Shown in pieces: positions 3,395 to 62,301 of a stretch of DNA of 64,000 nucleotides; the first letter of the stretch is position 1; each line of letters opens with the position of its first letter. The position numbers and the translations under genes are program-made. Below the pieces are notes generated by a model. It saw only the letters and a list, made by a program, of their open reading frames with translations, was not told the DNA's origin and made no database searches. The stretch comes from Haloterrigena sp. KLK7 (GTDB lineage: Archaea > Halobacteriota > Halobacteria > Halobacteriales > Natrialbaceae): contig NZ_CP149787.1 in the NCBI RefSeq assembly GCF_037914945.1, positions 372,001 through 436,000 on the forward strand, in the 5' to 3' direction.

Positions 3395-4585
3395 TCACCG
3401 GGCGGCGTTCGCGGGGCAGCTGTCGCTCGATGTGACGGGTGTCTCCGTCGTCGTCTCGTCTTCGTCGGCCGACTCGGCCTCGTCAGTCTCGGCCTCGTCA
3501 GTCTCGCCTTCGTCGGTCTCTTCGGCAGTCTCGCCTTCGTCGGTCTCTTCGGCGGTCTCACCTTCGTCGGTCTCTTCGGCGGTCTCGCCTTCTTCAGCCT
3601 CCTCGGCGGTCTCGCCTTCTTCAGCCTCCTCGGCGGTCTCGCCTTCTTCAGCCTCCTCGGCGGTCTCGCCTTCTTCAGCCTCCTCGGCGGTCTCGCCTTC
3701 TTCAGCCTCCTCGGCGGTCTCGCCTTCTTCGGCCTCCTCGTCTCCGTCGGCCTCCTCGCCGTCGGTGTCCGACTCGTCGGAATCGCCGCCCTCGACCGCC
3801 TCCAACTGGAGTTCGTCCGTCAGCAGCCGCTCGACGATCGCCGAGTGCCACTGCACGCGAGTCTCGAGGGAGACGTTGGTCGAGAGCGTCTCCGCGAGGA
3901 ACGCGTCGGCGCCGAGATCGCGGGCGGCCTTATGGACGAGTAGCCCCGTCGGATCGGTGTCGGGGCCGGTGAACGGTCCGGTCTGGAACGCCAGCGAGGA
4001 ATCGTCCACGTAGTTGCGGGTGACGTACTCGGCCGCATCGGTCGCGGCCGCGGTGGCCTCGTCGGAGTGGAAGATTGCCTGTCCGACGCCGTCGACGGGA
4101 TCGTTCGCGTAGATACCCGTCGACTCGTGAAGGTCGATCACGATGTCCGGATCGTACTCGGTGATGACTCGCCAGAGCGCCCGAGCGAGGTCGGTTCTCG
4201 GCCGCTCTCCTTCGGGAAACTGTCGGTTGAGGTCGGCGCCGTCGTCGGCGGTCCGCGTGCTGCGATCGATCGCGGCAGCGTTGGCCTCGGGGACGGTGAC
4301 GAGCGTTCCCGCGCCGATCTCCCAGTCGGCGATCGCGCTCGCGGCCGTATAGCCCGCGACCTCGTTGCCGTGGACGCCGCCGATGACGACGGCCGTTGGT
4401 CCGTCGGCGTCCGCGGTGGTGACGTACACCGTCGTCTCTTCGGCCGTTCCCTCGCGAATCACGAACGACTCCCGAGTCGATCCGTTCTCCTGTGCCCCAC
4501 TGACTGTAGTCGCGCCAGCGCCTGCGGCTACACAGGCGCCCGCGAGTGATAATACCGAGCGTCGTGAAAGCGGATTCCGCTGCAT
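3395..4585 (-). CDS. Tat-exported succinylglutamate desuccinylase/aspartoacylase-like (M14) protein with acidic repeat tail
   Basis: The 396-residue product starts with SRRSVLSLAGACVAAGAGA, a Tat signal. The catalytic domain (about 40-260) has VHGNE (His72, Glu75) and DLHES (His153), the zinc ligands of the M14/AstE-AspA fold, and a late AETLST with a candidate catalytic Glu232. Residues 283-363 are nine copies of a nine-residue acidic unit. The protein then runs into a short divergent tail and stops where a PKD-like domain begins out of frame. It probably hydrolyses an amide or peptide bond outside the cell. With its neighbours this fits surface-glycan processing (inference). Confidence 0.75.
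   Translation of the reverse strand: MQRNPLSRRSVLSLAGACVAAGAGATTVSGAQENGSTRESFVIREGTAEETTVYVTTADADGPTAVVIGGVHGNEVAGYTAASAIADWEIGAGTLVTVPEANAAAIDRSTRTADDGADLNRQFPEGERPRTDLARALWRVITEYDPDIVIDLHESTGIYANDPVDGVGQAIFHSDEATAAATDAAEYVTRNYVDDSSLAFQTGPFTGPDTDPTGLLVHKAARDLGADAFLAETLSTNVSLETRVQWHSAIVERLLTDELQLEAVEGGDSDESDTDGEEADGDEEAEEGETAEEAEEGETAEEAEEGETAEEAEEGETAEEAEEGETAEEAEEGETAEETDEGETAEETDEGETAEETDEGETDEAETDEAESADEDETTTETPVTSSDSCPANAAR
3497..3739 (-). repeat. Coding 27-bp tandem repeat, nine units
   Basis: Nine exact-length units encode six copies of EEAEEGETA followed by three of EETDEGETA/D. The six promoter-proximal units are almost identical at nucleotide level, which points to recent slippage or unequal exchange. 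The array sits between the catalytic domain and the broken PKD region, so it looks like a stalk or spacer of variable length. Confidence 0.9.
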
Positions 4586-7355: not shown

Positions 7356-8411
7356 ATGTACCGCGAGGCGACCGTCGGCGTCGTGATGCCAGCGTACGAC
7401 GAGGAGGGGTTCGTGGGCGACGTGATCCGCGAGATGCCCGACTACGTCGATCGGATCTACGCGATCGACGACCGATCGACCGACGGGACCTGGGAGGAGA
7501 TCCTCGAGGCAGCCCGCGACGACGCCGACGCGAACGGGGGGGTCGACGCGACGGACGACGCGCCGATGGTCACCGACGGCGGCGCGTCCGCGCTCGTTCG
7601 ACGGGCGTCCGTCCAGGACCCGATCGGACGAGTCGTCCCGATCCGGCACCGCGAGAACCGTGGCGCCGGCGGGGCGATCAAGACCGGCTATCTCGCCGCG
7701 CGCGCCGACGGCGTGGACGCGACGGTAACGGTCGACGCCGACGGGCAGATGGACCTCTCGCAGATGTCCCGGCTGCTCGACCCCATCGTCGCGGACGAGG
7801 CCGACTACGCGAAGGGGAACCGACTCCTCTCGCGGGAGTATCGCGCGGCGATGCCGCGGTTTCGGTTCGTCGGGAACGCGATCCTGTCGTTCCTGACCAA
7901 GGTCGCCTCCGGCTACTGGAAGACGATGGACCCCCAGAACGGCTACACGGCGATCTCCGGCGACGCCCTCGAGGCGATCGACCTCGAGAACCTCTACGAG
8001 TACTACGGCTACTGCAACGACCTGCTGGTGAAGCTGAACGTCCGCGGGATGCGCGTCGCGGACGTGGCGATGCCGGCCGTCTACGGTGACGAGGAGTCGA
8101 GCATCACGTACTCCGAGTATATCCCGAAGGTGTCGACGATGCTGCTGCGGAACTTCCTGTGGCGGCTGAAGACGAAGTACCTCGTGTTGGACTTCCACCC
8201 GCTGGCGTTCTTTTATCTCGTCGGCGCGGGACTGGCCGCGACCGGCGTCCTCGCCGCCGTCGTGACGCTGTTCGCGACGCTCTCGACGATCGGCCCGTCG
8301 GTGCAGGGTTCGACGACCGCGGTCCTGCTCGTCGCCGGCGTCGCGTTCCTGCTGTTCGCGATGCTGTTCGACATGGCCGAGAGCGAACACCTCGAGCGCC
8401 AGGTCCACTAG
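7356..8411 (+). CDS. Family 2 glycosyltransferase, dolichyl-phosphate sugar synthase-like
   Basis: This 351-residue protein starts VGVVMPAYDEEGFVGDVI and has YAIDDRSTDGT and TVTVDADGQMD, which are GT2 motifs. The NRGAGGAIKTGY region is typical of polyprenyl/dolichyl-phosphate glucose or mannose synthases. Two hydrophobic helices near the C-terminus would anchor it in the membrane. It may charge the lipid carrier used by the neighbouring flippase pathway (inference). An acidic insertion around residues 55-75 is a haloarchaeal feature. A GGAGG motif precedes the start. Confidence 0.88.
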   Translation: MYREATVGVVMPAYDEEGFVGDVIREMPDYVDRIYAIDDRSTDGTWEEILEAARDDADANGGVDATDDAPMVTDGGASALVRRASVQDPIGRVVPIRHRENRGAGGAIKTGYLAARADGVDATVTVDADGQMDLSQMSRLLDPIVADEADYAKGNRLLSREYRAAMPRFRFVGNAILSFLTKVASGYWKTMDPQNGYTAISGDALEAIDLENLYEYYGYCNDLLVKLNVRGMRVADVAMPAVYGDEESSITYSEYIPKVSTMLLRNFLWRLKTKYLVLDFHPLAFFYLVGAGLAATGVLAAVVTLFATLSTIGPSVQGSTTAVLLVAGVAFLLFAMLFDMAESEHLERQVH

Positions 8412-60582: not shown

Positions 60583-61209
60583 ATCCGTCGCTCGAGCCGT
60601 CAGTCAGGTAGGAGCAGTGCACGAATTCGCAAGGCGCGTCTCGCGCATCGGTTCATTTCATCTCGAACTATCGACCTGAGTGTACTGAATCAATTTTTAT
60701 ACAAATAATAGTCATTCATTACGTTGGGGATTTGCCCTCCTTTAGCGATAAGAATCATTTTCGAACCGACAGTAGGGACGCTCTCTCTGTTGACTATTGA
60801 TAGTTTATAATAAACAGGCTTAGCGAAGAATTTCCAGTATTAGTTTCACCCCATACCAGGTCATATTTATAACTAATAATTCCAATTCGAGATATTTTGG
60901 CAGCAAGAGCACGGATATTTCCTGTCAAAAGTAGCGATGAGAACTCTCGATAATGTTGCCGAAACGAGGGGAAATTCTTCTATATCGGCAGTGAAACTGA
61001 ATCTAAATCGATAAACAGAGCTATCGGCCGCTCTAATCTCAGGGTTCAATCGAAACTACTTGCCGGATTCAAATAGATCTCCGGTGACGGTAATAACCGG
61101 GCAACACGCCACAAAGGGAAATTGCAACTCCCTCGTGATGAGCAACAGCACCGTCATACGAGGGATGTTCCCTACTATAGCCTCTGTTGCCTGACACGGT
61201 GATTGAACA
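60583..61209. other. AT-rich, gene-free stretch (foreign island)
   Basis: From about 60660 the composition drops sharply, with runs such as TTTTTATAC and TATTTATAACTAATAATTCC, in contrast with the GC-rich flanks. No open frame with protein-like composition was found. The stretch lies directly upstream of the Lys/His/Asp repeat protein and on the same side as the tRNA-Gly scar, so it probably came in with a mobile element. Confidence 0.6.
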
Positions 61210-61668
61210 ATGAAACGTGCACTCTCGATTGTACTGGCAGTAGTAGTGATCGGTAGCGTGCTGTTCGCGGGCGGCGTGGTCGCACACGACTACGACAACA
61301 AACACGACAAGGACAAGCACGACAAGGAGAAGTACGACGATAAGGACAAACACGACGACAAGCACGACAAAGACAAACACGACGACAAGGACAAACACGA
61401 CGACAAAGACAAACACGACGACAAGCACGACAAAGACAAACACGACGACAAGGACAAACACGACGATAAGCACGATAAGGAGAAGTACGACGACAAGCAC
61501 GACGATAAGCACGACAAGGAGAAGTACGACGACAAGCACGACGATAAGCACAAAATCGACTTCGGGGACGACTTCCCCTTCAACGACAAAGATGTCGAAA
61601 TTGACTTCGGAGACGACTTCCCCTTCGACGACAAAGATGACGACATGCGAACTGGATCCGGCATGTGA
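61210..61668 (+). CDS. Secreted Lys/His/Asp repeat protein
   Basis: The 152-residue product has a Sec-type signal (MKRALSIVLAVVVIGSVLFA, then GGVVAH) followed by about 90 residues built from KHDDK, KDKHDD and KHDKEKYDD units. It ends with two near-copies of IDFGDDFPFNDKD. The mature region alternates basic, acidic and His residues and has almost no hydrophobic residues. High His/Asp density suggests metal or mineral binding, but no family is recognised. Lysine-rich composition and AT-rich flanks are atypical for the host, suggesting transfer. Confidence 0.75.
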   Translation: MKRALSIVLAVVVIGSVLFAGGVVAHDYDNKHDKDKHDKEKYDDKDKHDDKHDKDKHDDKDKHDDKDKHDDKHDKDKHDDKDKHDDKHDKEKYDDKHDDKHDKEKYDDKHDDKHKIDFGDDFPFNDKDVEIDFGDDFPFDDKDDDMRTGSGM

Positions 61669-61758
61669 TCCCGTCTCTAATTGACAGACTTACTCATTCG
61701 CGCCATTTTTTGATGCTCTCGTTGTCACTGGTCAGATTCATAATTATAACACGTAGTC

Positions 61759-61958
61759 CTACTTCCAGCGGTGAAATCGGTCGATATGGTAGGTGACGTT
61801 TCGAACGGTCTGCTCTGCGTAGCCTTCACGCTTCTTTGGATTCTTCCCGACAGTCTCGAGCCACTGGATAAGCCGCGCTTGTATTCGCAGTAATCAGTTA
61901 GCTTTCGATCCGTACGCACGTTTGCTGTCGGCTCGGTCACGACCGGAATGTCCGTCAC
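61759..61958 (-). pseudogene. Remnant of a tyrosine integrase (N-terminal core-binding domain)
   Basis: From a GTG at 61958 preceded by GGAGGG, the minus strand reads VTDIPVVTEPTANVRTDRKL, then TDYCEYKRG, and continues in a frame shifted by one base near 61872-61874 as LIQWLETVGKNPKKREGYAE followed by QTVRNVTYHIDRFHRWK, ending in TAG. This matches the SAM-like core-binding N-terminus of haloarchaeal tyrosine recombinases. The catalytic R-H-R-Y domain is absent. It lies beside a tRNA-Gly whose 3' end is duplicated, the expected place for an integrase. Confidence 0.72.
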
Positions 61959-62108
61959 AGCTGCCCTCCGGGAATGAGCTTGGCAGGTTCTCGAAATCGC
62001 TATACACCGTCGGAATCGGTGTGGGGAACCCACGGACTGAGCGTTCGGACGCATGTCTGTTTCATCCGTGAGTCAGCCGAAAAGTGCTGTCCGCGGCGAA
62101 GTCGCGGG

Positions 62109-62133
62109 ATGCGCGGACCGGGATTTGAACCCG
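62109..62133 (-). repeat. Duplicated 3' end of tRNA-Gly (attachment-site scar)
   Basis: Twenty-five bases are identical to 62230-62254, which cover the 3' acceptor strand, discriminator and T-arm of the tRNA-Gly gene 121 bp away. Such duplications mark integration by tyrosine recombinases. The integrase remnant lies on the far side of this copy. Confidence 0.8.
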
Positions 62134-62201
62134 ACTGCGAGACGGTCGCTCACTACGTTCGCGCTGCGACTCGCGTGCTTCAAATCCCTCTTCCGATTTC
62201 T

Positions 62202-62231
62202 GCCGCTCGCGGTCTTGCTCGCAGCAGAAAT
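62202..62231. repeat. 30-nt motif shared with the tRNA-Gln region
   Basis: This segment matches 16269-16298 at 24 of 30 positions (core CGCTCGCGG, then TTGCTCGC). Both copies are on the 3' side of tRNA genes with duplicated ends, which suggests related insertion events. Confidence 0.5.
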
Positions 62232-62301
62232 GCGCGGACCGGGATTTGAACCCGGGCCATGAGCTTGGAAGGCTCAGGTCCTACCACTAGACCATCCGCG
62301 C
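62231..62301 (-). tRNA. tRNA-Gly (anticodon TCC)
   Basis: The minus strand folds into a 71-nt cloverleaf. The acceptor GCGCGGA pairs with TCCGCGC with discriminator A, the anticodon stem TGAGC/GCTCA closes loop CTTCCAA with TCC at 34-36, and the T-arm is CGGG-TTCAAAT-CCCG. CCA is not encoded. Confidence 0.96.

Follow-up and report, generated by a model that had tools for sequence, protein, structure and literature searches.

A forward-strand open reading frame near the end of the 64,000-nucleotide stretch of Haloterrigena sp. KLK7 DNA analysed here (the window) starts at an ATG and encodes a 152-residue protein, P0001, dominated by Lys/His/Asp (K/H/D) repeats (Table 1). The first 25 residues are a Sec-type signal peptide whose last residues are VVA, with cleavage probably after Ala25 as judged by eye from the sequence. 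Residues 27-114 (88 aa) consist of 37 D, 28 K, 15 H, 4 Y, 3 E and 1 N, and the TRF score of this array reaches 274, placing it far beyond chance. The array is followed by IDFGDDFPFNDKD and then IDFGDDFPFDDKD, the two copies of IDFGDDFPFxDKD. The original prediction of a signal peptide, a K/H/D repeat and a duplicated tail within this frame was correct on each point, and its description of a secreted, repetitive protein without a hydrophobic core is supported as well. The C-terminus, DDMRTGSGM, contains no hydrophobic segment, and the PGF-CTERM signal of archaeosortase substrates (PGF motif, hydrophobic helix, basic end) was not found there. An AF2 model built from the P0001 sequence alone (pLDDT 57) is weak evidence; apart from the signal helix it contained no structure, and confidence in the rest of the chain was low.

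Table 1. Features at the P0001 locus and Gln/Asn genes of the same genome (positions are those of the window unless a locus is named)
Feature	Position	Strand	Basis
Block common to the window and congener G002	60871..61743	.	blastn of 19-kb regions; no similarity beyond
46 bp upstream of the P0001 gene, hairpin (CCTCGTGATG..CATACGAGG)	61131..61176	+	identical in both species (alignment)
K/H/D-repeat secreted protein gene (P0001)	61210..61668	+	ORF and homologue in congener G002
Signal peptide MKRALSIVLAVVVIGSVLFAGGVVA	61210..61284	+	signal-peptide profile of 10 relatives
K/H/D repeat region, units KHDD, KHDKD, KHDDKD, KYDDKD etc.	61285..61551	+	TRF and residue counts
Duplicated tail (K/E)IDFGDDFPF(N/D)DKD, 45-bp unit	61552..61645	+	TRF 61553-61643, 2.0 copies, 91% match
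Former P0001 C-terminus CELDPACDPVSN and stop, now out of frame	61646..61684	+	in frame in G002
Partial copy of tRNA-Gly 3' end, attachment-site-like	62111..62133	-	sequence match
tRNA-Gly (TCC), edge of integration hotspot	62231..62301	-	bounds variable interval
Small Gln/Asn genes, tandem	L030:7177-7560, 7567-7956	-	family profile
Large Gln/Asn-repeat gene, divergent	L030:9069-10583	+	family search
Second large Gln/Asn gene	G000:C2:8708-10084		profile search of own genome

The AT-rich island reported earlier is a real dip, with 50% GC around the gene against about 65% in the window, and the high A+T content of the gene itself reflects its codons for Lys, Asp and His (GC3 76%, GC2 13%). The accompanying view that the protein is unlike the acidic haloarchaeal proteome did not hold, since mature P0001 has a pI of 4.8 and a net charge of about -22 (His not counted); only its high content of Lys and His sets it apart. 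Elsewhere in the window, positions 3493-3740 hold a separate tandem repeat (27-bp unit, 9.2 copies, 95% match).

The P0001 gene is present in two of six congeneric genomes, this one included. The homologue in G002 (L026:8882-9253, 123 aa) retains the signal peptide and the first tail copy, while its K/H/D array is shorter and of another build (KHDKKHDD), made up only of K, D, H and one Y. The G002 protein ends with two Cys residues (CELDPAC). The original prediction named equally frequent synonymous and non-synonymous changes among related strains as a result that would refute it, and the gene passed this test. Across the alignable in-frame segments we counted 8 synonymous versus 3 non-synonymous differences (pN/pS 0.10, p 4e-4), and 7 versus 1 within the first 33 codons; because these differences are mostly synonymous, P0001 is a genuine gene with purifying selection on its alignable parts. 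A codon alignment of the array is not possible; selection on it was therefore judged by composition, and the K/H/D composition is kept between the two species though the array has been rebuilt. Tandem slippage of non-coding DNA as the origin of the frame was ruled out by the selection result together with GC3.

At the 3' end of the gene an 11-bp gap relative to G002 places the ancestral tail out of frame. In G002 the codons matching CELDPACDPVSN are read in frame as CELDPACDPVPN and a stop, with 5 synonymous differences and 1 non-synonymous difference. Because the lost-tail codons differ mostly synonymously, the frameshift is probably recent or an assembly error; it could also represent decay.

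The conserved block upstream of the gene includes a hairpin. RNA folding of positions 61110-61215 gave -30.8 kcal/mol (z -3.16), with none of 200 shuffles as good, and Rfam held no family for this region; the hairpin is a candidate leader structure or operator. A width-12 motif sampler detected no promoter motif shared by the K/H/D genes, and a sigma-70 promoter and terminator scan, whose coverage excludes archaeal promoters, yielded no excess over shuffles.

Genomic context was compared among the congeners. The flank to its left is syntenic in all congeners, and the P0001 gene lies between this flank and the tRNA-Gly; among congeners, the distance between the left flank (60634) and the tRNA-Gly can be as short as about 1.3 kb or exceed 30 kb. 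Partial tRNA-Gly copies similar to that in the window occur in G003 and G002. On this evidence the interval 60634-62301 is a tRNA-Gly integration hotspot. In G002 the homologue sits elsewhere in the genome, within a 1.8-kb insertion flanked by a permease-like gene (read by eye) and a DUF5828 gene, together with a second ORF that by eye resembles part of a transposase (no Pfam match). This insertion is absent from the genome studied here (G000) and from G003 and G004, where the flanking genes are directly adjacent and the site is empty. The two non-syntenic locations and the empty site indicate that the P0001 gene has moved horizontally.

Such a history would also suit a low-complexity gene that is neutral or in decay and travels on mobile elements, in which a family signal peptide became joined to a functionless repeat made by slippage. 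The patchy presence at two unrelated locations, the array rebuilt between species and the C-terminal frameshift in this genome all favour this account. Against it, change in the signal peptide and tail is mainly synonymous, the K/H/D composition is preserved despite the rebuilding, and the 46-bp upstream block is identical in both species, and we therefore consider neutrality or decay unlikely.

No match to P0001 above the curated cut-offs was found in Pfam, NCBIfam, PHROGs or PDB sequences. Low E-value matches (staphylococcal lipase, EbpS, presenilin and others) were composition artefacts, and searches of plasmid, phage, viral and first genome-contig collections with P0001 returned nothing confirmed. 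The earlier statement that the protein matches no family was not upheld, as the signal peptide places P0001 in an unnamed family of Natrialbaceae.

This family emerged from a search of Natrialbaceae (125 genomes), which yielded proteins starting with a P0001-like signal peptide. A profile of the signal peptides of 10 relatives, with P0001 left out, scored P0001 at 33.9 bits (E 4e-10), while the best non-family N-terminus reached 9.2 bits among 324 signal-like N-termini from the window and loci; relatives are over-represented in this set and convergence of signal peptides is possible, but the score gap is large nonetheless. P0001 contains the family signal peptide, MKRA[LI]...GS..F.GFAGTAAA. 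Most family members continue into a Gln/Asn core of invariant spacing, Q..N...QG.N.A....A.A....Q.N...Q, which is absent from P0001, and the full-family profile (A3) did not report P0001 when run on its own genome. Nor is the gene (C1:433210) adjacent to the Gln/Asn cluster of this genome (C1:3155179-3158579) or to the second large gene on C2. Like P0001, the members with the MKRA signal are small and have no enzyme motif that we could see, and those of Natronococcus jeotgali, G088 and G090 carry a K/H/D segment directly after the signal peptide. They differ in that typical members have about 12-30% Q+N, compared with 2% in mature P0001, and in that P0001 ends in IDFGDDFPF tails and is encoded by a lone, mobile gene. 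The DF.DDFPF motif of these tails recurs only in one small Natronorubrum bangense member, which ends in DFEDDFPFF. Because P0001 shares the signal peptide but neither the core nor the gene linkage, we have not filed it as a full member; it is best described, from these comparisons, as a divergent member or descendant of the family whose Q/N core was lost or never present.

Family members (e.g. L028, L030, L080, L083 and L086) agree far more closely in the signal peptide than in the mature part, as if the former were specifically recognised or shuffled as a module. Conservation of the signal peptide beside divergent mature sequences, in a gene that is mobile and patchy, would also be expected of a small secreted effector on integrative elements, halocin-like or acting in signalling. 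Halocins are compact, and the mature part of P0001 is unlike them; moreover, no immunity or processing gene was seen beside the P0001 gene, and the phage, plasmid and viral collections gave no match. An effector role is accordingly an improbable one.

When the whole class was searched with the family profile, 84 of 391 haloarchaeal genomes, representing 26 of 86 genera, contained members, and 79 of those 84 belong to Natrialbaceae. In many genomes a small Gln/Asn gene adjoins a divergently oriented gene for a Gln/Asn-repeat protein of 500-660 aa, and both here and in N. bangense glmS and radB are found close to the cluster. Neither Pfam nor NCBIfam has a family for the small or the large proteins, and a search of the literature found no study of them. 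Two plasmid-borne relatives of the large protein are annotated as PGF-CTERM (surface sorting), one of them visibly with a PGF-type tail; an AF2 model of a large relative was unreliable (mean pLDDT 34.5). The unnamed family may comprise surface proteins that build the outer matrix of the cell, and the small and large proteins form a candidate surface fibre system, which we regard as a larger lead than P0001 itself. Of 12 Gln/Asn genes, 7 (L027, L030, L035, L080, L082, L084 and L086) have the sequence GTGCC[CT] no more than 32 nt from the ATG, against a background of 1%, although the criterion for this test was relaxed after inspection and the result is a lead only. The K/H/D genes have TTGCCT, with one mismatch. 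It is possible that GTGCC[CT] is a common control site of the Gln/Asn genes.

K/H/D segments similar to that of P0001 recur within this system. In N. jeotgali (L079:3191-3613) the signal peptide is followed by HDYHDDKHDNDKHDKHDNDKHDKDRYDDKHD and then a Gln/Asn core, and the stretch AHDY-DKHD-DKHDK, directly after the P0001 signal peptide, aligns with this protein. A G088 protein (L028:6941-7486) combines a signal peptide, KHADDKKDDDR-type repeats and a Q/N core. The large Gln/Asn-repeat protein found in Natrialba, Natronorubrum and others differs from P0001 in its length, its Gln/Asn repeats and its signal peptide, and has K/H/D sequence only as a linker; in Natrialba hulunbeirensis this internal linker, KYDDKKHDDKHDDKKDDKKHDDKKDKDHHKK, is like P0001 in make-up. 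In a search independent of signal peptides, 391 haloarchaeal genomes were scanned for exact DNA matches to KHDDK.D. This retrieved the two K/H/D genes, the large N. hulunbeirensis protein and, in four genomes, one isolated site in a TnpB-like transposon protein, TnpB being named from sequence and not by profile. From this search and the segments in N. jeotgali, G088 and Natrialba, we conclude that the K/H/D module accompanies the Gln/Asn family. Two further proteins resemble P0001 in being repetitive and K/H/D-rich with secreted-looking N-termini: G088 encodes a pure K/H/D repeat protein with a Cys tail, KKSCYC (L024:1066-1911, minus strand), and G041 a basic protein with a twin-Arg-type N-terminus (L019). 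Their signal peptides are unrelated to that of P0001, and their origins are probably independent; K/H/D repeats can therefore arise independently, and the P0001 repeat is itself possibly convergent.

Taken together, these comparisons lead us to suggest, with a probability of about 0.42, that P0001 is a horizontally moved, secreted and disordered polyampholyte, an offshoot of the unnamed Natrialbaceae surface or matrix family that acts as a hydrated, cation- or metal-binding matrix filler. The family signal peptide would direct the protein through Sec, and outside the cell the K/H/D chain would be unfolded and hydrated, the alternation of Lys and Asp with His making it a soluble polyampholyte in brine. 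Its Asp and His side chains could loosely bind divalent or transition metal ions, and the aromatic-acidic IDFGDDFPF tail (in the other species the two-Cys tail) may tether the chain to a matrix of its Gln/Asn relatives. The original prediction listed metal sequestration, mineral nucleation and surface coating as possible roles; it is because of these relatives that we favour a place at the surface or in its matrix. Against the reading as a whole, P0001 lacks a Q/N core, its gene lies away from the Q/N genes and only two of the six congeners have it.

Alternatively, P0001 may be a free extracellular chelator with no link to a matrix, its His and Asp residues binding Zn, Cu or Ni for scavenging or detoxification. 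Such a role is suggested by the 16 His and 50 Asp in the 127-residue mature protein and by weak, composition-driven matches to His-rich loops in zinc proteins, the G002 homologue matching ZIP (PF02535, E 0.03) and the N. jeotgali relative matching ZrgA and ZnuA. These matches fall far below the curated cut-offs and reflect composition, and no metal transporter or metal regulator was present among the neighbours examined (a DICT-domain protein, an ORF without a Pfam match, the tRNA-Gly and a beta-propeller protein). We see a free chelator as a possibility, one less probable than the matrix filler. A different use of the same side chains would be mineral nucleation, in which an acidic repeat buffered by Lys and His templates carbonate or phosphate. 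Asp-rich repetitive secreted proteins of animals nucleate mineral; P0001 has no sequence relation to such proteins in Pfam, NCBIfam or the PDB and no supporting genomic context, and this role is very improbable.

The Gln/Asn relatives, and they alone, resemble curli (CsgA/CsgB) in being secreted, in their Gln/Asn-periodic repeats and in the pairing of small and large partners. The Pfam curlin repeat gave no match at E values up to 1 in P0001 or in the small or large relatives, which rules out P0001 as a curlin. A more speculative proposal, which we rate as doubtful, is that P0001 is a mobile, metal-binding accessory of a haloarchaeal fibre system, composed of a large surface-anchored Gln/Asn-repeat protein and small Gln/Asn subunits with a common conserved signal peptide, that would be the counterpart of curli by convergence.

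In summary, P0001 is encoded by a genuine and mobile gene with ties to an unnamed surface-protein family, and our best guess is that the protein, being disordered, fills a matrix or binds metal. A putative amyloid was described by staining in biofilms of Haloferax volcanii in 2014, in a paper that named only one candidate gene, by homology (PMC4180959). The unnamed Gln/Asn family would provide a concrete and separate set of predicted candidates for archaeal amyloid in Natrialbaceae. P0001 indicates what can result when the signal peptide of such a family acquires a purely charged repeat as its partner and the fusion passes from genome to genome, and it looks like a simple case in which composition is kept while the repeat is rebuilt.
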